64,000 bases of DNA, from the NCBI GenBank assembly GCA_024235695.1, contig JACKLX010000004.1, positions 186,001 through 250,000 on the forward strand. Direction: 5' to 3'. The translations under genes were made by a program, and so were the position numbers. How positions within the stretch are numbered: the stretch's first letter is position 1; each line of letters begins with the position of its first letter. The DNA comes from Accumulibacter sp. (GTDB lineage Bacteria; Pseudomonadota; Gammaproteobacteria; Burkholderiales; Rhodocyclaceae). The notes under the pieces were generated by a model. It did no database searches. It saw only the letters and a program-made list of their open reading frames with translations, and was not told where the DNA came from. Shown in pieces: positions 8,148-48,190 of this stretch.

Positions 8148-9403
8148 TTCAGCACTTGCCCCTTGAGCGCTGCCGGCAGGACGACGTTACCGCGCTCGAC
8201 GGCATTGTCGAGCGCCTCCTTGGCAGGCTTCGTGCCAGCCCACGCGGCTTCCAGCTCCTCCTCGACGATCACCCGCACCGGCTCGATCTGCGAGACGCGC
8301 AACTCCCGCAGGGCGCCCTTGCCCTGTAGCTGCAGATAAGCGACATCGAGACCCGCGACATCGGCCCGCAGCAGCTGGCTGTCGGCCGCTGCGCGAGCCA
8401 CCGGAGTCAGCGGCAGGAAGCCCCCCAGAGCGGTGAACTCGACCTGCAGGTCGGGCTCCAGCAGGAAGCTGACGAAGCGCGCCACGCCCTTGTATTCGGC
8501 CGCCTTCTTGCCGGCACCTACCCACAAGGAAGCGCCATCAGCCAGCGTCTGCTGCGGCGTGCCTTGCACATCATCGTGGTAGGGCAGCGCCGAAACACCG
8601 GTTTCGACCTTGCGACCTTCGGACAAGGTGCTGAACAGCGAAGACGCGCTGGTCAGCATGCCGCACTCGCCGGCGGCAAAGCGCCGGTCGGCTTCATCGC
8701 GGCGACCGAAATAGGTGAAGAACTTGGCTTTCGACCAGGTGGTCAGCATCGCCGTGTGCTTGACCTGAACCAGACCGTTGAAGTCCAGCTTGCCCTTGGC
8801 GGTTGCCACCTCGGCGCCGTTCCAGGCGCTGAGATTGTCGATATGCACCCAGGCCGGCCACGACGTGGTGTAGGGGCAGGTGCTGCCCGAATCGAACAGC
8901 TTGTCGGCGGCCTTTTGCGCTTCCGCCCAGGTCTTTGGCGGCTTCTCGGGGTCAAGGCCGGCTTTGCGGAACGCCGCCTTGTTGATGTACAGGACCGGCG
9001 TGGACAAGGCCACCGGCAGGGCGAAGAGGTTGCCCTTCCTGTCGCCAAGACCGACCCGCAGCTCCGGCGACAGTTTGCGTCCGTCGAAGGGTTCCTTGGC
9101 CTGCTGCATCACCTGATACAGGGGCTTGAACTCCTCCTTGGCGGCCATGAACTGCGCCTGCTCTTCGCGCGTCACCAGGTTGAGGTGTTTCGGTGCGTCA
9201 CCGTCGACACGGCGCACGACCTTCAGCTGGTAATCCTTCTGTCGCGAATTGAAACGCTCGACGACCTTCTCGAGTCGCTCGCCGCGCTCCTCGTCAAGCC
9301 GGTGCGATAGGTCGATTTCGATTGGCGCCGCAGCCAGGGCCAATGCAAAGGGGGCAGCAAGAGCGAATGCCACCGCGGAGGAGAGAATAGTGTGCAGGCG
9401 CAT
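8144..9403 (-). CDS. ugpB: sn-Glycerol-3-phosphate ABC transporter, periplasmic binding protein
   Basis: This 419-residue solute-binding protein begins with a Sec signal peptide (MRLHTILSS, then an Ala/Leu-rich core). Family 1 ABC binding-protein features follow, such as NLFALPVALSTPVLYINK and the CPYTTSWPAWVHIDN region typical of UgpB. UgpB binds glycerol-3-phosphate or glycerophosphodiesters in the periplasm. The ATG at 9403 has an AGGGA ribosome site. It is followed directly by ugpQ. The membrane subunits ugpA and ugpE and the ATPase ugpC are not adjacent, so they must lie elsewhere if the system works. Confidence 0.93.
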   Translation of the reverse strand: MRLHTILSSAVAFALAAPFALALAAAPIEIDLSHRLDEERGERLEKVVERFNSRQKDYQLKVVRRVDGDAPKHLNLVTREEQAQFMAAKEEFKPLYQVMQQAKEPFDGRKLSPELRVGLGDRKGNLFALPVALSTPVLYINKAAFRKAGLDPEKPPKTWAEAQKAADKLFDSGSTCPYTTSWPAWVHIDNLSAWNGAEVATAKGKLDFNGLVQVKHTAMLTTWSKAKFFTYFGRRDEADRRFAAGECGMLTSASSLFSTLSEGRKVETGVSALPYHDDVQGTPQQTLADGASLWVGAGKKAAEYKGVARFVSFLLEPDLQVEFTALGGFLPLTPVARAAADSQLLRADVAGLDVAYLQLQGKGALRELRVSQIEPVRVIVEEELEAAWAGTKPAKEALDNAVERGNVVLPAALKGQVLK

Positions 9404-10042: not shown

Positions 10043-10143
10043 CCAGACCAGCTGCCTGGCGGTGAAAATTGCCGCGGCGACGCGTCCGTGCCGAGGCGCG
10101 CTGCGGCCGCGTGAGCAGCCACTTCGCCCCACTTGCCGGACCG

Positions 10144-11181
10144 TCAGGGCGCCGGATTGGTATAGCGCAGATGGACGCCGTCGATCTCCGCCAGCAGCGA
10201 CGGCGGCAGCTGCACCGCCAGTGCGGCGAGGTTCTCGTCGAGTTGCGCGAGGCTCGTCGCGCCGATGATCGTGCTCGCCGCGAACCAGCGCGAATAGACG
10301 AAAGCAAGCGCCAGCTGTGCCGGCGTCAAGCCGTAGCGAGCGGCAAGCTCGGCGTAGGCGGCGACCGCTGGCGCGACGTTGACCTTGCCGTAGCGCTGAC
10401 CGAAGCCGGCAAAGCGGGTGATCCGGCCGGGCGCCTGCGCGTCGTGCAGGTACTTGCCGGAAAGGGTGCCGAAAGCCAGTGGCGAATACGGCAGCAGGGC
10501 GAGATTCTCGCGGTGACAGACCTCGGCCAGCCCGCACTCGTAGACCCGGTTGAGCAGGCTGTAGGCGTTCTGCAGGGAAACCGGCCGCGGCAGTCCGTTC
10601 GCGCGCGCCAGGCGAAGGAATTCCATGACACCCCAGGGATGCTCGTTGGAGAGGCCAAAATGGCGGATCTTGCCCTCGCGCGCCAACGTCGCCAGCGCTT
10701 CCAGCGTCTCGAGAATCGGCGTCGACGCGCACTCCCTGGCCGGATCGTACTGCCATTGACCGAACATCGGCTGATTGCGCGCCGGCCAGTGCAGCTGGTA
10801 AAGATCGACGTAGTCGGTTCGCAAACGCCGTAGCGAGCCGTCGAGCGCGGCCCGCAGCCCGGCCAGATCGAAGCCCAGCCGACCATCGCGGAGCCAGCTG
10901 AGGCCGCGTGAAGGCCCGGCGGCCTTGGTCGCGACGATGATCTTGTCCCGCGACTGCCTGGCCAGCCAGTTGCCGACAATCAGCTCGGTGCGGCCGCAAG
11001 TCGCCGCCTTCGGCGGCACCGGGTACATTTCAGCGGTATCGATGAAATTGATTCCGGCGGCCAACGCGCGGTCAAGCTGCAAGTGCGCTTCGGTCTCGCT
11101 GTTCTGCTCCCCGAAGGTCATCGTGCCGAGACAGACCGCGGAAACCCGCAGGCTGCTGTCAGCAAGCGTCACGTACTTCAT
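10144..11181 (-). CDS. tas: NADP(H)-dependent aldo/keto reductase, Tas type
   Basis: The protein has 345 residues from the ATG at 11181, which follows a strong GGAGG site. It matches Tas-like aldo/keto reductases throughout. SAVCLGTMTFGEQNS opens the barrel, and the catalytic Asp and Tyr lie in NFIDTAEMYPVPP. The Lys is in IIVATKAAGP and the His in YQLHWPAR. It reduces aldehydes or ketones with NADPH in the cytoplasm; the physiological substrate is unknown. It stands as a single gene with its own leader. Confidence 0.92.
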   Translation of the reverse strand: MKYVTLADSSLRVSAVCLGTMTFGEQNSETEAHLQLDRALAAGINFIDTAEMYPVPPKAATCGRTELIVGNWLARQSRDKIIVATKAAGPSRGLSWLRDGRLGFDLAGLRAALDGSLRRLRTDYVDLYQLHWPARNQPMFGQWQYDPARECASTPILETLEALATLAREGKIRHFGLSNEHPWGVMEFLRLARANGLPRPVSLQNAYSLLNRVYECGLAEVCHRENLALLPYSPLAFGTLSGKYLHDAQAPGRITRFAGFGQRYGKVNVAPAVAAYAELAARYGLTPAQLALAFVYSRWFAASTIIGATSLAQLDENLAALAVQLPPSLLAEIDGVHLRYTNPAP

Positions 11182-36931: not shown

Positions 36932-37141
36932 GGCAATCCGCGCCGGGCGCGGTGAACTGTGATCGAGCGCCAAGTGTAGGGCTGGCTTGTCGAGGAGACA
37001 AGCCAGCTGGTGAGCACCGCCGACAACGCCGCCGCCAGCCGGGCGAAGGCCTCGCCGCCTATCGCAGCGCCGAGGCGTTCTGATAGCATTGACCGGTCAG
37101 CCGCTCTCCCGAGCTTGTTCACTGCTCGTCTTGCGAGGCCC

Positions 37142-38218
37142 ATGATGACCACCATCACCGCGACCACCACCGCCCGGCGCTGCCTTTCGGCCGCCATCCT
37201 CAGCCTCTTGCTGCCGATCGCGAGCGTCAGCGCGGCGCCGCCACTGCCCGCACTCGGCGCCGAGCTGCACCAGTTGACGGTTTCCGGCGTCTCGTCGGGC
37301 GCCTACATGGCGGTGCAGTTCCAGGTCGCGCACTCAAAGCTGGTACGTGGCGCCGGCGTCGTCGCCGGCGGGCCATACTACTGCGCCGAGGGTTCGACCC
37401 GGCTGGCGCTGAGTCGCTGCATGTCGCCCACCTCGTGGGCACCGCTGCCGTCGGTCGCCGAACTGCGCGCCAACGCCGAAGCGCTGTCCGCCGCAGGCCG
37501 CATCGATCCGCTCGACAACCTGCGCGACGACCGGGTTTGGCTGTTCTCGGGTGGTCGCGACACGATTGTCGCGACGGCAGTAATGGACCGGCTGGCGGCC
37601 TTCTATGGCCAGTGGATGACGCCGGAGGCGATTCGCTTCGTCAAGTTGCCCGACGCCGGGCACGCCATGATCTCGGTCGCCGACCCCGGAGCCAATGCCT
37701 GCAGCAGCGAGGAATCGCCGTTCATCAACCGCTGTGGCGATCTCGATGCCGCCGGCGAGATGCTTTCACATCTGCTTGGCCCGCTACAACCGGCGGCGGC
37801 GACGCCACACGGCGAACTGCTCAGCTTCGACCAGAAGCCCTTCGTCGAAGGTCGGGCGGTTGACGCCGGGATGGCCGACGAGGCCTACGTCTACGTACCG
37901 CAGACCTGTCGCCGGGCCGTCTGCCGGGTTCACGTTGTTTTCCACGGTTGCCGCCAGAGCGCGGCACAGATCGGCCGCCTGTTCGTGGAAAGCGCCGGCT
38001 ACAACGCCTGGGCGGACAGCAACCGGCTGATCGTTCTTTACCCGCAGACGGTTCCTCGCTACGGCGCAGCAATGGGCTCGTGGACCTGGCTCAACAACCC
38101 CTTTGCCTGCTGGGACTGGTGGGGCTACTCGGGGAACGACTATCACACCCGCGAAGGACCGCAGATCAAGGCCGTGTACCGCATGATCGAGCGGCTGACC
38201 GCTGCGCGGCAGCCGTGA
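37142..38218 (+). CDS. Secreted PHB-depolymerase-like esterase
   Basis: The 358-residue alpha/beta-hydrolase has a signal peptide (to about residue 32, SVSAAPP). The lipase box is GVSSG with the nucleophile at Ser51. The His is probably in PDAGHAM. A C-terminal region (HVVFHGCRQSAAQIG, then GSWTWLNNPFACWDWWGYSG) is typical of short-chain PHB-depolymerase-family esterases. It would cleave poly- or oligo-hydroxybutyrate, or other esters, outside the cytoplasm. It is not the intracellular PhaZ type. The ATG at 37142 has a GAGG just ahead. It is a single gene, divergent from the aminotransferase. Confidence 0.85.
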   Translation: MMTTITATTTARRCLSAAILSLLLPIASVSAAPPLPALGAELHQLTVSGVSSGAYMAVQFQVAHSKLVRGAGVVAGGPYYCAEGSTRLALSRCMSPTSWAPLPSVAELRANAEALSAAGRIDPLDNLRDDRVWLFSGGRDTIVATAVMDRLAAFYGQWMTPEAIRFVKLPDAGHAMISVADPGANACSSEESPFINRCGDLDAAGEMLSHLLGPLQPAAATPHGELLSFDQKPFVEGRAVDAGMADEAYVYVPQTCRRAVCRVHVVFHGCRQSAAQIGRLFVESAGYNAWADSNRLIVLYPQTVPRYGAAMGSWTWLNNPFACWDWWGYSGNDYHTREGPQIKAVYRMIERLTAARQP

Positions 38219-41526: not shown

Positions 41527-42333
41527 TCAGCCGTAGCGGCCTTCGATGTAGTCGGCGGTTTCCCTGTGGATCGGCGTGACGAACATTTCCGCGGTCAGTG
41601 CGTGCTCGACGACCTTGCCCATCAGCATGAAGACGCATTCCTCGCTGGCGCGACGCGCCTGCGCCATGTTGTGAGTGACGATCAGGATCGTGTACTGGCC
41701 GCGTAGCTCCCAGAGCAGTTCTTCGACCGCCTCGGTGCCCTTGGGGTCGAGCGCCGAGCACGGTTCGTCCATCAGCAGCACCTTTGGCTTCACCGGCAGC
41801 AGTCGGGCGATACAGAGCTTCTGCTGCTCCTCCAGAGACAACTCGGTGGCCTTGCGCTTGAGGCGGTCCTTGACCTTGTCCCAGAGCAGGACGGTCCGCA
41901 GCGACTCCTCGACAATCTCGTCCGGCGTTCCTGGATGCACATCGCCGCCGCCCTTGGCGTGCAGGCGATGGCTGAAGAGGATATTGTCGCGGATCGAAAT
42001 CGGCAGGGGATTGGGACGCTGAAAGACCATCCCGACCTGCTTGCGAACCTGAATCAGCTCGACGCCCGGGTCGTAGATGTTCTGACCCATGACGTCGATG
42101 CGCCCTTCGATGCGCACGTAGCCGAGGCGTTCGTTGATGCGGTTGACGCTGCGCAGGTAGGTGCTCTTGCCGCAGCCCGAAGGGCCGATCATCGAGGTGA
42201 TCATGCCCTGGCGGATGCGCAGGTCCACGTCGTACAGAGCCTGAAAGGTCCCGTACCAGAGGTTCAGTTTCTTGGTGTCGATCGCGTAATCTGGAGCTGG
42301 CTGCAGCAGCGCTGCGGCTTGGGCGACGGTCAT
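41527..42333 (-). CDS. pstB: Phosphate ABC transporter ATPase PstB with degenerate signature motif
   Basis: This 268-residue ATPase has Walker A GPSGCGKS (50-57), Q-loop MVFQRPNPLP (Gln105), Walker B LLMDEP (Asp189-Glu190), D-loop SALD and H-loop VTHNM (His221), all intact. The ABC signature is not: LSGGQQQR of normal PstB is LSLEEQQK here (165-172). This is the reverse of the defects in the neighbouring PstB. It is the last gene of the operon, after a 195-base gap holding a stem-loop. It powers phosphate import through PstC/PstA, probably as a heterodimer with the other PstB. Confidence 0.92.
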   Translation of the reverse strand: MTVAQAAALLQPAPDYAIDTKKLNLWYGTFQALYDVDLRIRQGMITSMIGPSGCGKSTYLRSVNRINERLGYVRIEGRIDVMGQNIYDPGVELIQVRKQVGMVFQRPNPLPISIRDNILFSHRLHAKGGGDVHPGTPDEIVEESLRTVLLWDKVKDRLKRKATELSLEEQQKLCIARLLPVKPKVLLMDEPCSALDPKGTEAVEELLWELRGQYTILIVTHNMAQARRASEECVFMLMGKVVEHALTAEMFVTPIHRETADYIEGRYG

Positions 42334-42488
42334 CTCGGTGTGTCCTTCTTAGACTTTGTTTGAATCCGGCGAAAGCCGTGGCCTGCTCCACCGCAGCTCT
42401 CTCAGACATGAGGCGAGCGCTGGCATCGTCGCAAGACCGGTCAGCTTCCGCAGTTCGGCAAACTGGTGGAGCGGTGGCCCGGAGGCAC

Positions 42489-42512
42489 CTCTGCTGCAAC
42501 AACACAGCAGAG
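42489..42512. other. Stem-loop between the two pstB genes
   Basis: A perfect 8-base stem (CTCTGCTG with CAGCAGAG) closes an 8-base loop, 16 bases after the stop of the upstream pstB. No T-run follows in the direction of transcription. It may therefore stabilise or process the mRNA rather than terminate it. The rest of the 195-base gap shows no gene. Confidence 0.55.
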
Positions 42513-42528
42513 ATCCCCTCAGCCAGGG

Positions 42529-43350
42529 TCAGCCGAATCGTCCCTCCACGTAGTCGCGGGTGCGCTGATCCTTCACTTCACCGGTGAACAGATCCTCGGT
42601 GACGCCAATCTCGACGCACTCGCTGTCCAGAAAGAACGCTGTCCGGTCGGCGAGCCGCCGGGCCTGCTGCACGAGGTTCGTGACCAGGATGATGGTCACT
42701 TCCTGGCGCAACTCCTTGAGCACATCCTCAATGCGCATGGTGGTAACCGGATCGACGGCGATCGAGAACTCGTCCAGCATCAACAGGTCGGGCTCCTGCG
42801 ACAGCGCCCTGGCAATCGTCAGCCGTTGCTGCTGGCCGCCCGAGAGCAGGCTGCCGAGCGCATTGAGGCGATCCTTGACCTCGTCCCAGAGCGCCGCGCG
42901 GGTCAGACAGCGCTGGACGATCACGTCCAGTTCGGCCTTGCTCTTGATGCCGCGCAAGCGGGGTGACAAGGCGACGTTGTCGTACACCGTCATCGGCAGG
43001 CCGACCGGCAGCGGGAAAACGACGCCGATGCGGCTGCGCAAAGCGTACACATTGTTCAGGCGGCGGGTATCCCGGCCGTTGAAGTCGATGTCGCCACTGA
43101 CCCGCATCCCTGGTGTGAACACGTCCATGCGGTTGATCGCCTTGAGGAACGAGGTCTTGCCGGCATTGGCCGGACCGATGATGCCGAAGATTTCATGCTC
43201 GTGAATCTCCAGGTTGACGCCGTGCAAGGCGACCACCTTGCCGTAGCGGATGCTCAGGTCCTTGACCGCGAGTTTGATGCGCGGCTCGGTTCGCCCGGTC
43301 TTTGCGTCGGCAACACCAGCCGGCCGCTCGATAGTGCTTTGACTTACCAT
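42529..43350 (-). CDS. pstB: Phosphate ABC transporter ATPase PstB lacking Q- and H-loop residues
   Basis: This 273-residue ATPase begins at the ATG at 43350, overlapping the pstA end by 7 bases. The signature LSGGQQQR (169-176) is canonical. Walker A is GPANAGKT (59-66), which still fits GxxxxGKT, and Walker B is LLMLDE (Asp193-Glu194). Two catalytic positions are changed: the Q-loop reads VVFPLP (Pro113 for Gln) and the H-loop reads VTNLVQQA (Asn225 for His). The D-loop is IAVD. It should therefore donate a good signature to its partner but hydrolyse ATP poorly itself. Confidence 0.92.
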   Translation of the reverse strand: MVSQSTIERPAGVADAKTGRTEPRIKLAVKDLSIRYGKVVALHGVNLEIHEHEIFGIIGPANAGKTSFLKAINRMDVFTPGMRVSGDIDFNGRDTRRLNNVYALRSRIGVVFPLPVGLPMTVYDNVALSPRLRGIKSKAELDVIVQRCLTRAALWDEVKDRLNALGSLLSGGQQQRLTIARALSQEPDLLMLDEFSIAVDPVTTMRIEDVLKELRQEVTIILVTNLVQQARRLADRTAFFLDSECVEIGVTEDLFTGEVKDQRTRDYVEGRFG

Positions 43351-44234
43351 TTCTTCTTCCCCCTGAGCCACATGCGGAAGGCGATCGAGGCACTGTTCAT
43401 GGTCAGCACCAGCCCGATCAGGACCAGCGCGATGCCGTAGGGGACATCTTCGGCAATGCCGGGTACCTGGGTGGCAGCGACGAACAGGTGCAACGACAGC
43501 GCCATGGTCTGGTCGAAGACGCTTTGCGGCAGGAATGGCGTGAAGAACACGGCGCCGGTAAACATGATTGGCGCCGTTTCACCAGCGGTGCGCGACACCT
43601 CCAGGATGACACCGGTCAGGATGCCGGTCACCGAGTTCGGCAAGACCACGCGGCGGATGGTCTGCCAGCGCGTCGCGCCCATGTTCCAGCAGGCTTCGCG
43701 AAACGCTTGCGGCACCGCCTGCAGCGATTCGCGGGTGGCGACGATCACCACCGGCATGGTCATCACCGCCAGCGTCAGGCTCGCCGCCAGGATGCTGGTG
43801 CCGAAGCCGAAGAAGAGTACGAAGGCGCCCAGGCCGAACAAGGCGTGCACGATCGAGGGGACGCCCGCCAGGTTGATGATCGCCAGGTTGATGGTCCGTG
43901 TGAACCAGTTGTCGCCGGCATATTCACTGAGATAGATCGCAGCAAATATGCCGATTGGCACCGACAGCAGGAGCGCCGTCATCACCAACCAGATAGTACC
44001 GATCAACGCCGGCAGGACGCCGCCAGTGCGCATGCCGTCGGTCGGCGGGGTGAACAGGAACTCCCAGGAGATAACGCCGCCGCCCTTGACCACCAGTGTT
44101 CCGAGAATCAGCAGCACGGGCGTGATCAGCATCAGGGTCATGATTCCGAAAAGTATTCGGTAGAGAACCTGCACCTTCTCGTTGCGCTGGTTCAGGCGGC
44201 TCGCCTGAAACATTGCGGTGTTGGCTGTTGTCAT
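43344..44234 (-). CDS. pstA: Phosphate ABC transporter permease PstA
   Basis: The 296-residue inner-membrane permease has about six helices. The binding-protein-dependent transport loop that docks on the ATPase is FREACWNMGATRWQTIRRVVLPN. The TAGETAPIMFTGAVFF block is typical of PstA. It pairs with PstC to form the phosphate channel. The ATG at 44234 lies 4 bases after the pstC stop, and its end overlaps the start of pstB. Confidence 0.95.
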   Translation of the reverse strand: MTTANTAMFQASRLNQRNEKVQVLYRILFGIMTLMLITPVLLILGTLVVKGGGVISWEFLFTPPTDGMRTGGVLPALIGTIWLVMTALLLSVPIGIFAAIYLSEYAGDNWFTRTINLAIINLAGVPSIVHALFGLGAFVLFFGFGTSILAASLTLAVMTMPVVIVATRESLQAVPQAFREACWNMGATRWQTIRRVVLPNSVTGILTGVILEVSRTAGETAPIMFTGAVFFTPFLPQSVFDQTMALSLHLFVAATQVPGIAEDVPYGIALVLIGLVLTMNSASIAFRMWLRGKKKW

Positions 44235-44238
44235 TTTG

Positions 44239-45189
44239 CTATCCCTTGCGGATGCCGCGCACGATCAGGTCGGCGCTCAGGTTGACGATAAAGGTGACCA
44301 GGAACAGCAGGATGCCGATGGTGAACAGCACCTGATAGTGCTCGCCACCGACGACCGTCTCACCCAATTCGGCGGCAATCGTCGCAGTCAGCGCACGTAC
44401 CGAGTCGAAAATGCTGTCCGGGATGTTGACCGCGTGCCCGGTAGCCATCAGCACCGCCATGGTCTCACCGAAGCCGCGACCAACACCGAGCAGGACGCCA
44501 CCGAGCAGACCATTCTTGGCGGCCGGCAGCACCACCTTGTAGGTCACCTGCCAGCGCGTGGCGCCCATCGCCTCGGCCGCTTCGCGGTAACGGTCGGGAA
44601 CTGCCTTCAGCGCGTCTTCGGCGATCGAGGTCATGATCGGAGCGGCCATCAGGCCGAGGATGATGCCGGCGTTGAGCACGCAAAGACCCACCGGCACGTC
44701 GAACCACTTGATGATCAAGGGATTCATGATCACCAGACCGATGAAGCCCCAGACCACCGAAGGAATCGCGGCCAGCAATTCGACCAGCACCTTCAGCGCT
44801 TCACGCGTCTTGCCGGTAGCGAACTCGGCGATATAGATCGCCGCACCCAGCGAAAACGGGATCGCCACCAGCATCGCCAGCCCGGTGACGCTGGCGGTAC
44901 CGGCCATCAACGCCAGAATGCCGTATTCGGGATCGTCGGCATCGCTCGGAAACCAGTAAGGGGTGAGAAAGAACTCCTTGAAATCGAGGTGTTGGAAAAC
45001 GAAGCCGATGCCTTCCTTGGTGACGAAGACAAAGATGCCGAGGACGAAGATGATCGCCGAGATACCGCAGACGAAGACGAGAACCTGGACGGCCTTATCC
45101 ACGTACCAGTCGGCATTGCGACGATCGAAGCTGTCCGCGCCGCCAACGGCGGCGATGGTGGCGCGCGACGCAGTCGTGCTGATGGCCAT
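44239..45189 (-). CDS. pstC: Phosphate ABC transporter permease PstC
   Basis: The 316-residue permease has about six helices. The ATPase-docking loop is YREAAEAMGATRWQVTYKVVLP and the family block GFGETMAVLMATGHA is present. PstC and PstA form the membrane channel fed by PstS. The ATG at 45189 is one base after the phoU stop, so translation is likely coupled. An upstream in-frame start at 45210 lies inside phoU and is less likely. Confidence 0.95.
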   Translation of the reverse strand: MAISTTASRATIAAVGGADSFDRRNADWYVDKAVQVLVFVCGISAIIFVLGIFVFVTKEGIGFVFQHLDFKEFFLTPYWFPSDADDPEYGILALMAGTASVTGLAMLVAIPFSLGAAIYIAEFATGKTREALKVLVELLAAIPSVVWGFIGLVIMNPLIIKWFDVPVGLCVLNAGIILGLMAAPIMTSIAEDALKAVPDRYREAAEAMGATRWQVTYKVVLPAAKNGLLGGVLLGVGRGFGETMAVLMATGHAVNIPDSIFDSVRALTATIAAELGETVVGGEHYQVLFTIGILLFLVTFIVNLSADLIVRGIRKG

Positions 45190-45190
45190 C

Positions 45191-46276
45191 TCAGTCCGCC
45201 TCCTCGCCACGCAGGGTGATCATCAGGTTGCTCACCTGTACCGCGATGTCGCGAATCAGGGCTGCGTAGTGCTCGCGCCGCTGATCGTCAGGAAGGTCGG
45301 CCGCAACGGCGCCGCCGAAGCGCCACTCGAGTGCCGACGAGTGGAAGGGAACGCTGTCTACGTACGACCTGACCGGACCCTGCAGGCTGACGATGACGTG
45401 GAAATCGACCAGATCGTGATGACCGGTTTCGAGCGCCTTCGGCTGGTGGCGGGCAAGATCGATGCCCGTCTCCTGAAGCAAGCTGACCACCTCCGGCGCC
45501 ATCGCCCCAGCCTGTCTGCCCAGGCTTCGGTATTCGCCGCTCTCCGGGAAATTCTTGCGGGCGACGGCCTCGGCGATCGGCCCGAGAAGGGTGTTGTCAT
45601 CGTCCAGGAAGAGGATGCGAAAGACCTTGGCCGCCTTGGTCTGGCCGGTGACCGCGAACACCGTTTCCTCGCAGATGTTCTTGGCCTGGTCGGAAACGCG
45701 CTCCAGCGAGTTGAATACCCCGAGATAGGCGAAGAGATCCTCGATGCTGAACTTCTCGCCTTCGTTGACCAGGTCGGCGAAGACCGCGTCGAAGGTCCGC
45801 TCGACCTGATCGGCCATGATCATCGTTGCCTTGGCCTTCTCGGCGTTGCCATCGATGAAAGCACAGACCGCCTGCTTGAACATCTGGCGCGACTCGCCGG
45901 CGAGCAGCTCGACCTCGCGCTTGATCACCGCGTCGGGACGTTTGGCCAGGTGCACCGACTCGCGGGCGATGGTCACCGCGTAGTCGCCGACGCGCTCCAG
46001 CGCCACGTTGGCGTGAATCATCGCCGTCATCAGGCGCAGGTGCCCGGCACTCGGTAGATGCACACCGATGAAAGCGTGGCACATGCGGTCAAGTTTGCGG
46101 TTTTCGGCGTTGATCCGCTGGTCGCCGAGAATGGTGGCATAGGCGAGCTTGTCGTCGCCACTCAGCAAGGCCCGCACTGCTGCACTGAGGGCTTCGTCGA
46201 CGCGCTTGGCAAGCATCGTCGCCTGTTGTTTGATCTGAGACAGGTCCCTCTCGAGACGTTCTTCGTAATGACTCAT
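45191..46276 (-). CDS. phoU: PhoU fused to an inactive low-molecular-weight phosphatase/ArsC-like domain
   Basis: This 361-residue protein is much longer than normal PhoU (about 230-240). Residues 1-212 are a full PhoU domain with both metal-binding motifs (ERVGD at 94-98 and ERVSD at 192-196). Residues about 217-350 resemble the low-molecular-weight tyrosine phosphatase/arsenate reductase fold: VFRILFLDDDN as the first strand and loop, GIDLARHQPKALE, FHVIVSL, LEWRFGG and a final helix. The P-loop that is CTGNSCRS-like in active enzymes reads DDDNTLLG (225-232), with no Cys or Arg, so catalysis is not expected. PhoU restrains Pst transport and PhoR signalling; the extra domain may sense phosphate or a phospho-ligand. 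Start: ATG 46276. Confidence 0.88.
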   Translation of the reverse strand: MSHYEERLERDLSQIKQQATMLAKRVDEALSAAVRALLSGDDKLAYATILGDQRINAENRKLDRMCHAFIGVHLPSAGHLRLMTAMIHANVALERVGDYAVTIARESVHLAKRPDAVIKREVELLAGESRQMFKQAVCAFIDGNAEKAKATMIMADQVERTFDAVFADLVNEGEKFSIEDLFAYLGVFNSLERVSDQAKNICEETVFAVTGQTKAAKVFRILFLDDDNTLLGPIAEAVARKNFPESGEYRSLGRQAGAMAPEVVSLLQETGIDLARHQPKALETGHHDLVDFHVIVSLQGPVRSYVDSVPFHSSALEWRFGGAVAADLPDDQRREHYAALIRDIAVQVSNLMITLRGEEAD

Positions 46277-46316
46277 CGCTAGCGGCTCCCCACAGCACTG
46301 ACGGACGGACAACAAT

Positions 46317-46366: not shown

Positions 46367-47239
46367 TTACTTGCAGTTGACCTTCTTGATCGGCGCGTAA
46401 CCTTCCTTGGCGACGATGCACTGACCGACGTCGCTCTTGATCCAGTCCATGTACTTCTTGGTATCTGCCTTCGGTTGACCATCGGTGTACATGAATAGCG
46501 GCCGGGCGATCGGATAGGTGCCATCGAAAGCGGTATCCTCGGTCGGCTTGACGCAGGGCTTGCCCTTCTCGGGCGAGATGCACAGCGCCTTGAGGTGATC
46601 GGTGGCGTAGGCCAGACCGCTGTAGCCGATCGCGCAGGGCGTTTTCTCGACCAGGTCGGCGACGTCCTTCGAACCGTGCATGTCGAGCGTACCCTGGCGG
46701 AATTTGCCCTTCTCGCCCAGCACGGCCTCCTGGAAGTAGGCATAGGTCCCCGAGTTGTTCTGCCGGCTGACCACGACGATCTCGTCCTTGCAACCGGGAA
46801 TGGTGATCCCCAGTTCGCTCCACTTGGTCGCGCCGCCACGCCCGTAGATCTTCGCCAGTTCGGGAATGCTCAGTGAGTCGAGCGGAAAGTTCTTGTGCAC
46901 GAAGATCGCCAGAGCATCGTAGCCGACGACGTGCTCGACGGGATCGTGACCTTTGGCCTTGGCCTCGGCAATCTCCTTATCCTTCATCTTGCGGCTGGAG
47001 TTGGCGATATCGACGGTGCCGTTGATCATCGCCGCGATGCCGGTACCCGAACCGCCGCCCGAGACGGCCACGGCGACGTTGGGGTTGATCTTGCCGTACT
47101 GCTCGGCCCACGACTGGGCGACGTTGACCAGAGTGTCCGAGCCCTTGTTCTGGATTTCGGTCCGTGCGGAAGCCGCACCGGACGCCAGGGCAGCGGCGAC
47201 GGCAAGGCTGATGCTCAACAACAACGATTTTGAAGTCAT
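46367..47239 (-). CDS. pstS: Phosphate ABC transporter periplasmic binding protein PstS
   Basis: The 290-residue protein has a signal peptide (to about residue 26, GAASA). Phosphate-binding loops follow, such as NKGSDTLVNVAQSW, SGGGSGTGIAAMINGTVDIA and SRQNNSGTYAYF. It binds phosphate in the periplasm and delivers it to PstC/PstA. The ATG at 47239 has a GGAGA site. It heads the operon. A GATAAT (47332-47337, minus strand) about 95 bases upstream is a candidate -10. Confidence 0.93.
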   Translation of the reverse strand: MTSKSLLLSISLAVAAALASGAASARTEIQNKGSDTLVNVAQSWAEQYGKINPNVAVAVSGGGSGTGIAAMINGTVDIANSSRKMKDKEIAEAKAKGHDPVEHVVGYDALAIFVHKNFPLDSLSIPELAKIYGRGGATKWSELGITIPGCKDEIVVVSRQNNSGTYAYFQEAVLGEKGKFRQGTLDMHGSKDVADLVEKTPCAIGYSGLAYATDHLKALCISPEKGKPCVKPTEDTAFDGTYPIARPLFMYTDGQPKADTKKYMDWIKSDVGQCIVAKEGYAPIKKVNCK

Positions 47240-48190
47240 GACGTGTTCTCCAGGGAGGGTTGATTTTTTTTGAAGCCTTTGGATGTAGATCAAAGACTTC
47301 AGGGGTGACGCAGGGCAGACGAGCGGCAAAGATTATCAGAAATAATCGCCATGGCAAGCCCCATTGACACCTAAAACACGAATAAAAATTGGCCTGACCA
47401 CTGCCCGCGAACCATTTTCAGCCGGCACTTCAAACACCATGACAAAGTCCTGTGAAATCCCTGAGATGCGACACGGATTGGCACATTTTCATACGTACCG
47501 TATTGTTTTACTGTCGTTTCTATGATTTGACAAGACATGCCTTTGCACTACTTGTTGAACAATTACAGAGATCATCATTGATTATCAATGGACTTGGCAC
47601 ATAATCGCTAGCCATGCCAATACCAACAGACCATGGATCTCGGTGTTTGGCCATCGCGAGCACCGTCGAAGTCGCAGAAACGGTGCGATCTAATCGTCAC
47701 TACGGATAAGTAATCCTTTTATCTCATGGAGTTGTCGGGCCGATTCGAGAAATTGCCCAGTCGCGGTATTTTCTCTGCGGTTCGCGATCTGTCATGAAGA
47801 TGACATACGGCGACAAGGGCCGGAAAAGGTGGTGCCGGCAGCCCCTCGCCCTTGCCTCTGGTTGGCGCCGCATCACGCGATAGTCATTGCCCCGGGGATG
47901 CTCACGCGATGGCTCGCGGTACGCCCGGGACAAGCGCTCGGCAGTCTTGTCGGCGCCACGACGAGGCGCCGGGGCCTGGCGGTCGACCGTGACAGCAGGC
48001 GCGGAGATGGCCGCAAGCGGCCCCCGCAGTCCGGCCGGCTAAGCGACGAAGAGAGCGAGCCAGCACCCACCGGCATCGACCCGTGCAGCTGATCGACGGC
48101 GTCAACCGTTGGCCAAGGCCGACGCGGCAGGACCGGCCAACCGGCCGATCAACGGCTGGGCGCCGGTACGCGAAACCGCGCCGCGCCGGA
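47240..48190. promoter_or_regulatory. 951-base AT-rich control region upstream of pstS
   Basis: No convincing gene. GC content falls to roughly 35-43% at 47521-47640, far below the surrounding genes. Short dyads are frequent: ATACG and CGTAT at 47492-47504, TTGTTGAACAA at 47552-47562, and TGTCAT and ATGACA around four bases at 47790-47805. The last contains Pho-box-like half sites (CTGTCAT). The proximal part should hold the pst promoter. The part from 47820 to 48190 returns to high GC and holds nothing I can name. Confidence 0.55.

Follow-up and report, generated by a model that had tools for sequence, protein, structure and literature searches.

The window, a 64,000-nucleotide stretch of Accumulibacter sp. 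DNA, carries the operon of a PstSCA importer that is very probably driven by an obligate heterodimer of two PstB-like ATPases, here termed PstBa and PstBb, with only one hydrolysing site. The operon has six genes, arranged head to tail in the order pstS, phoU fusion, pstC, pstA, pstBb and pstBa, all on the minus strand (Table 1). An earlier note on this DNA had located the two ATPase genes without naming a strand; both reading frames are present where it placed them, and both are on the minus strand. Counting PstBb residues from its ATG (43350) reproduces the numbering of the earlier note exactly; a GTG at 43371 might serve as a longer start. A further gene of the window, at 37010-38218, resembles one for an extracellular polyhydroxybutyrate depolymerase.

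Table 1 Genes and altered ATPase motifs of the pst operon in the window.
Feature	Position	Strand	Description
pstBa	41527..42333	-	PstB-like ATPase; Walker A/B, Q-loop and H-loop intact; LSLEE replaces LSGGQ
pstBb	42529..43350	-	PstB-like ATPase; LSGGQ, Walker A Lys and Walker B Glu intact; Q-loop Pro, H-loop Asn
pstA permease	43344..44234	-	TIGR00974 256.1 bits, cut-off 193.45; EAA loop EACWNMGATRW
pstC permease	44239..45210	-	TIGR02138 272.8 bits, cut-off 196.45; EAA loop EAAEAMGATRW
phoU fused to LMW-phosphatase/ArsC-like domain	45191..46315	-	PF01895; second domain without catalytic Cys and Arg
pstS phosphate-binding protein	46367..47329	-	TIGR02136 246.8 bits, cut-off 206.6
LSLEE replacing ABC signature LSGGQ, PstBa	41827..41841	-	LSLE in 106/106 distinct orthologs
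Pro113 replacing Q-loop Gln, PstBb	43012..43014	-	108/108 distinct orthologs
Asn225 replacing H-loop His, PstBb	42676..42678	-	108/108 distinct orthologs
Walker B and altered D-loop LDEFSIAVD, PstBb	42751..42777	-	IAVD and catalytic Glu in 108/108 distinct orthologs

PstS, PstC and PstA all score above the curated thresholds of the respective phosphate families and are encoded in this single operon. EAA coupling loops are found in PstA and PstC alike, in the window and in the relatives examined for them (16 out of 64). The PstB equivalog TIGR00972 was the best family for both ATPases despite scores of 312.4 bits (PstBa) and 275.1 bits (PstBb), under the curated cut-off of 343.2, a shortfall that matters for annotation. 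The nearest solved proteins for both are E. coli PstB (PDB 9k3x/9k3s). The mean pLDDT of the AlphaFold monomers was low (70.7 for PstBa and 66.8 for PstBb), and these models served solely to assign the fold family; the best structural match of each was PstB of the canonical PstSCAB (9k3s, 9k3x).

Family membership points to phosphate as the substrate of PstSCA with PstBa and PstBb. The heterodimer might be real and yet serve a system whose main role is to sense phosphate, or which imports another oxyanion (e.g. arsenate or phosphite), a reading to which the ArsC/LMWP-like domain fused to the operon's PhoU lends some colour. Set against it are the scores of PstS, PstC and PstA above the cut-offs of TIGR02136, TIGR02138 and TIGR00974, and we consider it very unlikely. 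Family membership is in itself no proof of substrate.

Complementary motif losses in PstBa and PstBb

E. coli has a single pstB. Whilst the canonical PstSCAB of E. coli (9k3s, 9k3x) shares its subunit types and fold family with the present system, E. coli PstB is consensus at every aligned motif, whereas here there are two off-consensus, complementary PstBs and a PhoU with a second domain. Alignment of PstBa with E. coli PstB (9k3x) yielded the segments GPSGCGKST, VFQ, LSLEE, MDEPCSALD and VTH, with Q105, LSLEE at residues 165-169 and H221. The corresponding segments of PstBb are GPANAGKTS, VFP, LSGGQ, LDEFSIAVD and VTN, with P113, LSGGQ at 169-173, LDEFSIAVD at 192-200 and N225. The earlier note had described PstBa as combining an LSLEE signature with an intact Walker A, Gln105 and His221, and PstBb as combining LSGGQ with Pro113 and Asn225. 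Alignment to this characterised PstB bears the description out exactly for both, placing the change of PstBa in the signature motif and those of PstBb at the Q-loop Gln and H-loop His. Additionally, PstBb is changed in its D-loop (IAVD vs SALD) and in its Walker A filler (GPANAGKT). It retains the A-loop Tyr, the Walker A Lys, the Walker B Asp and the catalytic Glu. The two proteins are ~37% identical to one another.

An ABC site requires Walker, Q and H elements from one subunit together with its partner's signature (PMC7756269). By motif, a PstBa homodimer lacks LSGGQ and a PstBb homodimer lacks both Q and H, so only the PstBa:PstBb pairing gives a consensus site, of which it has one. The earlier proposal of one canonical and one degenerate composite site therefore fits the motif complement, the degenerate site being without signature, Q and H. 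As expected of a degenerate NBS, two different NBDs carry losses (the signature in PstBa, Q and H in PstBb) that fall in one composite site; replacement of the Walker B catalytic Glu, common though not universal in ABCB/ABCC, was not observed, Glu being present in 108/108 PstBb sequences.

Two homodimeric or exchangeable PstBs might instead share one permease as overlapping or accessory ATPases, as in E. faecalis, where the adjacent pstB1 and pstB2 genes have unequal roles and excess PstB2 can replace PstB1 (PMC12096839). Consensus motifs in both PstBs, as in that tandem, are not found here: in every distinct relative aligned, a homodimer of PstBa would be without LSGGQ, and one of PstBb without Gln and His, at both sites. 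We regard such an arrangement as very improbable. It is similarly hard to credit PstBb as a non-transporting pseudo-ATPase regulator (e.g. a PhoU or PhoR docking subunit) with PstBa working otherwise. The absence from PstBb of both gamma-phosphate-sensing residues, and the dead phosphatase domain carried by the operon's PhoU, would suit that role. However, PstBb keeps a perfect LSGGQ, a motif that works in trans when two NBDs dimerise and is exactly the one that PstBa lacks, and the Walker A Lys and the Walker B Asp and Glu of PstBb are all kept (108/108).

By arithmetic, three random motif losses would share one composite site with a chance of 2/8, and complementarity in a single genome is weak evidence alone. 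The complementarity observed here is raised far above chance because it is unchanged across relatives.

Conservation and distribution of the pair

Relatives included those from a search of 398 genomes of the phylum and from a genome_contigs scan (one genome per species) seeded with the PstBb peptides IIGPANAG and [IV][RH]EHEIFG, from which the best 80 of 209 relatives of PstBb were kept. The seeding biases the Walker A filler within that set and leaves the scored motifs unbiased. In the phylum search, full-length PstBa-like matches besides the window's own scored 391 to 437 bits at 70-78% identity, and one partial match scored 337 bits (residues 4-223, 68% identity). The next-best matches showed 51-53% identity and at most 286 bits, and the seven that were read proved canonical. 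Matches from this search were fetched except for the partial one and two second copies. Sequences were assigned to PstBa, PstBb or canonical PstB by score (>340 bits, or 190-340 bits), and motifs were tallied over distinct sequences: 106 of 127 for PstBa, 108 of 130 for PstBb and 41 of 41 for canonical PstB. Partial PstBa pieces below 340 bits were dropped; one PstBa was unreadable at the A-loop and Walker A, another at the H-loop.

Among distinct PstBa sequences, the Q-loop Gln and LSLE were each present in 106/106 and the H-loop His in 105/105 readable sequences, the fifth letter of the signature being E in 104, Q in 1 and A in 1. Among distinct PstBb sequences, Pro, Asn, LSGGQ, Glu and the D-loop IAVD were each present in 108/108, as were the Walker A Lys and Walker B Asp. 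All 41 canonical controls possessed Q, LSGGQ, Glu and H, one having A at the first D-loop position, and no lost motif was found among these 41 of the 190-340-bit middle class. The co-conservation of altered positions that the earlier note put forward as a check is seen throughout, with Pro and Asn together in 108/108 PstBb and LSLE in 106/106 PstBa. No intermediate showing the order of motif loss was found among the fetched sequences.

Within the genus, median dN/dS was 0.06 for pstBa (17 of 19 loci, 136 pairs) and 0.09 for pstBb (19 of 19 loci, 171 pairs); purifying selection on both genes is strong. The idea that redundant paralogs are simply decaying at random in this genome does have local precedents, namely a decayed canonical pstB in the window's genome and decayed second pstBb/pstBa fragments in a relative (G005). 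Against these stand identical substitutions in more than 100 distinct sequences per gene and dN/dS of about 0.06-0.09, and we rejected decay as an explanation, its probability being close to nil. The earlier contention that the losses are not random is accordingly upheld by invariance and dN/dS, whilst the complementarity on which it had leaned is by itself weak support, arising in 2/8 cases by chance.

In a quick tree (79 rows; 23 PstBa, 23 PstBb and 31 canonical), PstBa and PstBb each formed a single clade with 100% support, on stems of ~3.5 and ~4.0 changes per column, respectively, that far exceed the crowns. The branch lengths portray a history of an early single large change followed by near standstill. 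Mean pairwise identity was 82% for pstC, 81% for pstA, 80% for PstBa, 79% for PstBb, 69% for pstS, 51% for PhoU and 42% for the fused domain (64 of 80 loci; in the 16 left out, a gene was absent or scored below threshold). Over the same 64 loci, PstBa and PstBb distances were correlated (Mantel r 0.745, with 0/2000 permutations as high), and the PstBb-phoU correlation was 0.773. Because the latter is no lower, the PstBa-PstBb correlation is attributable to operon co-inheritance and not to specific co-evolution, and the mirror-tree comparison was rejected as proof of contact.

PstBb was present in 19/28 genomes of the genus at 83-100% identity, and PstBa lay directly beside it in 19/19 Accumulibacter loci, cut off in one (L022) and containing unread bases in another (L020). 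PstBa was present in 20/28; in the twentieth (G015) the gene starts at contig base 331. The pair was absent as a unit from 8/28. A six-frame search of 297 family genomes returned PstBb-like matches above 80% identity from this genus only; more widely, PstBb-like genes occurred in 7/368 other genomes of the class and PstBa-like genes of at least 70% identity in 22/397 other genomes of the phylum. Four plasmid records matched at E 1e-60, all at <60% identity, and plasmid spread was rejected.

The best 80 of 209 scan relatives of PstBb are 72-90% identical to it. By record title, 14 of these 80 are Ca. Accumulibacter, 1 is Dechloromonas and 15 are Thiodiazotropha or animal symbionts. Most of the others are titled as Gammaproteobacteria, e.g. 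Sedimenticola and Lysobacterales, together with a few MAGs labelled Planctomycetota, Gemmatimonadetes, Bacteriovoracaceae, Deltaproteobacteria, Alphaproteobacteria and Ca. Polarisedimenticolaceae. With 14/80 loci titled Accumulibacter, the system is not special to phosphate-accumulating bacteria, the setting in which the earlier note considered it. PstBa followed directly downstream of PstBb in 77 of these 80 loci, the remaining three ending at a contig edge. Furthermore, all 65 loci holding every part showed the order pstS-phoU::LMWP-pstC-pstA-pstBb-pstBa on a single strand, under thresholds slightly laxer than those of the 64-locus set. Incomplete loci agreed except for L087, in which the only nearby pstS is a second copy that follows pstBa.

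Neither gene is often found without its partner, as the earlier note required: an intact PstBa or PstBb alone was seen solely at contig ends and on one apparently chimeric contig. In that last case (L171), PstBa has no full PstBb upstream, and a scrap reading LDEFSIAVDPV lies beside unrelated sequence. The genome has 730 contigs and 6% contamination; we read the case as a broken or chimeric contig and rejected it as a PstBa-only genome.

Broken extra pieces of PstBa accompany the intact pair in G005 and G007. That of G007 (G007:C69:38132-38545) covers residues 116-257 at 93% identity. In G005, a one-contig genome, the intact operon is separated by ~13 to 18 kb from decayed fragments (L182:6030-6294 and 10128-10905), which comprise a PstBb-like piece (78% over 45 residues) running into a PstBa-like end, plus a broken PstBa. 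This decayed second copy no longer keeps the D-loop letters of intact copies, which is the look of unconstrained copies. In some relatives a second PstS-like gene lies directly 3' of pstBa (L085:10652-11470, L087:2528-3379 and L125:10694-11515).

Proposed mechanism and relation to known transporters

In the heterodimer that we favour, site 1 would bring the Walker A/B, Q-loop and H-loop of PstBa together with the LSGGQ of PstBb to form a consensus site that hydrolyses ATP. Site 2 would pair the Walker A/B of PstBb, with Pro and Asn for Q and H, with the LSLEE of PstBa. It probably still binds ATP, because PstBb keeps the Walker A Lys, the Walker B Asp and the catalytic Glu, and its hydrolysis would be poor or nil. 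Each cycle would then involve one hydrolysis, and the second ATP would either keep the two subunits together or serve as an allosteric ligand. Formation of the heterodimer, the nucleotide occupancy of its sites, its stoichiometry and its ATPase asymmetry are all predictions. One hydrolysing and one ATP-holding site would be the likeliest way of working, as in TAP or TM287/288, although the set of residues lost is not the same.

A bolder reading, which we hold tentatively and think rather doubtful, is of a separately evolved, widespread Pst-PhoU machine in which half of the motor and the regulator's phosphatase domain would have become non-catalytic sensors. One ATP would be spent per phosphate, and the fused PhoU pseudo-phosphatase would read the silent site, which might report the transport state or gate flux, perhaps with a lower cost or reversal. 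Reversal is brought into consideration only by the invariant D-loop change, because mutating the D-loop of TAP made it a nucleotide-gated facilitator (PMC7756269).

The system resembles TAP1/2, CFTR/ABCC, TM287/288 and Pdr5 in having one consensus and one degenerate site with the signature of the opposite NBD altered, and the Asn of PstBb is paralleled by the altered H-loop of TAP, ABCC7 and Pdr5 (PMC7756269). Conversely, degenerate-site exporters mostly lose the Walker B Glu (PMC7756269), whereas this system is an importer that keeps Glu and has lost the Q-loop Gln. The likeness to TAP, CFTR and TM287/288 drawn in the earlier note hence extends to the single degenerate site, but both subunits here retain the catalytic Glu, unlike most degenerate-site exporters.

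Importers with one degenerate ATP site are represented by RbsA and NupO; these are classed as type II, with fused NBDs and loss of the second Walker A Lys (PMC11466899), whereas the present ATPases are separate chains of a type I family that keep the Lys. DppDF is likewise an importer with NBDs from two genes, but both DppD and DppF have been shown to hydrolyse ATP, and complementary losses are undescribed in the accessible portions of that report (PMC12136057). The E. faecalis pstB1 and pstB2 genes are adjacent within one pst operon, as here, but their products are 60% identical with the same canonical motifs, compared with ~37% and complementary degeneracy in the present pair; in the available text of that report, no prior published study is said to address the relative contributions of tandem pstB paralogs (PMC12096839). 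An Accumulibacter phosphate-gene paper, in the parts available, mentions PstB just as a component of Pst (PMC11131965). No report of a PstB pair with complementary losses was found in open PMC papers. The complementary-degenerate PstB pair thus appears undescribed in the open literature, the principle of the degenerate site being already known.

Why a barely hydrolysing site should be kept is a question studied mainly in exporters. A review of degenerate sites deals, in its available text, with exporters (PMC7756269). Here, the same asymmetry would be found in two small soluble proteins from a type I importer family, and a canonical-type PstB coexists with them in 16/28 genomes of the genus. 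Symmetric and asymmetric versions of one transporter would thereby become directly comparable for ATP cost per substrate, directionality and regulation.

The fused PhoU and other phosphate transporters in the genus

The PhoU domain of the fusion matched PF01895 at 87.4 bits (cut-off 23.5), and the full-length PhoU model TIGR02135 was narrowly missed (129.9 vs 130.25 bits). The second domain of the window's fusion gave a weak match to TIGR02691 (ArsC; E 0.00065) and none to Pfam at 1e-3, whilst the fused domain scored above the cut-off of PF01451 (LMW phosphatase) in 4/4 relatives tested. PhoU and the phosphatase-like domain share one reading frame in 70/71 loci. The CX5R catalytic loop of LMW phosphatase or ArsC enzymes is absent: at the catalytic Cys position, 70 of 71 sequences have D and the remaining one has E, and Arg occurs in 0/71. 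Judged by these residues, the fused domain is a predicted pseudo-phosphatase. Its constant place in the operon suggests that the PhoU fusion is probably a dedicated regulator of this Pst. No match to a PhoU-phosphatase fusion was found in the open PMC full-text literature. In the canonical pst operon of G005, PhoU occupies its own frame without a phosphatase-like domain. At L113:1499-3181, a single frame leads from PhoU through no more than the beginning of the phosphatase-like domain into PstC, as though the bulk of that domain had gone, be this real or an assembly fault.

The pair (or, in G015, PstBa at a contig edge) accompanies a canonical-type PstB in 16/28 genomes of the genus; canonical-type PstB occurs alone in 7/28, the pair alone in 4/28 and neither in 1/28. 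Canonical-type PstBs were assigned by score and 43-49% identity, except for 10 in which motifs were read. One genome listed as 100% complete (G024) has no PstB of either kind above ~112 bits to PstBa and has two Pit-type matches. The four pair-alone genomes, without a full-length canonical PstB, include the window's own, which is 83.66% complete. Pit-type transporters are present in 28/28 genomes, with five matches to PF01384 in the window's genome; the pair is the sole intact PstB found there, which, given these five, does not make it the proven sole phosphate feed. The distribution suggests that canonical Pst is open to loss in genomes carrying the pair, and not that the pair covers all phosphate supply. 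On contig C7 of the window's own genome lies a decayed canonical pstB with an internal deletion and an altered Walker A (L060:7175-7654 and 8287-8511), and close to it a permease-like scrap.
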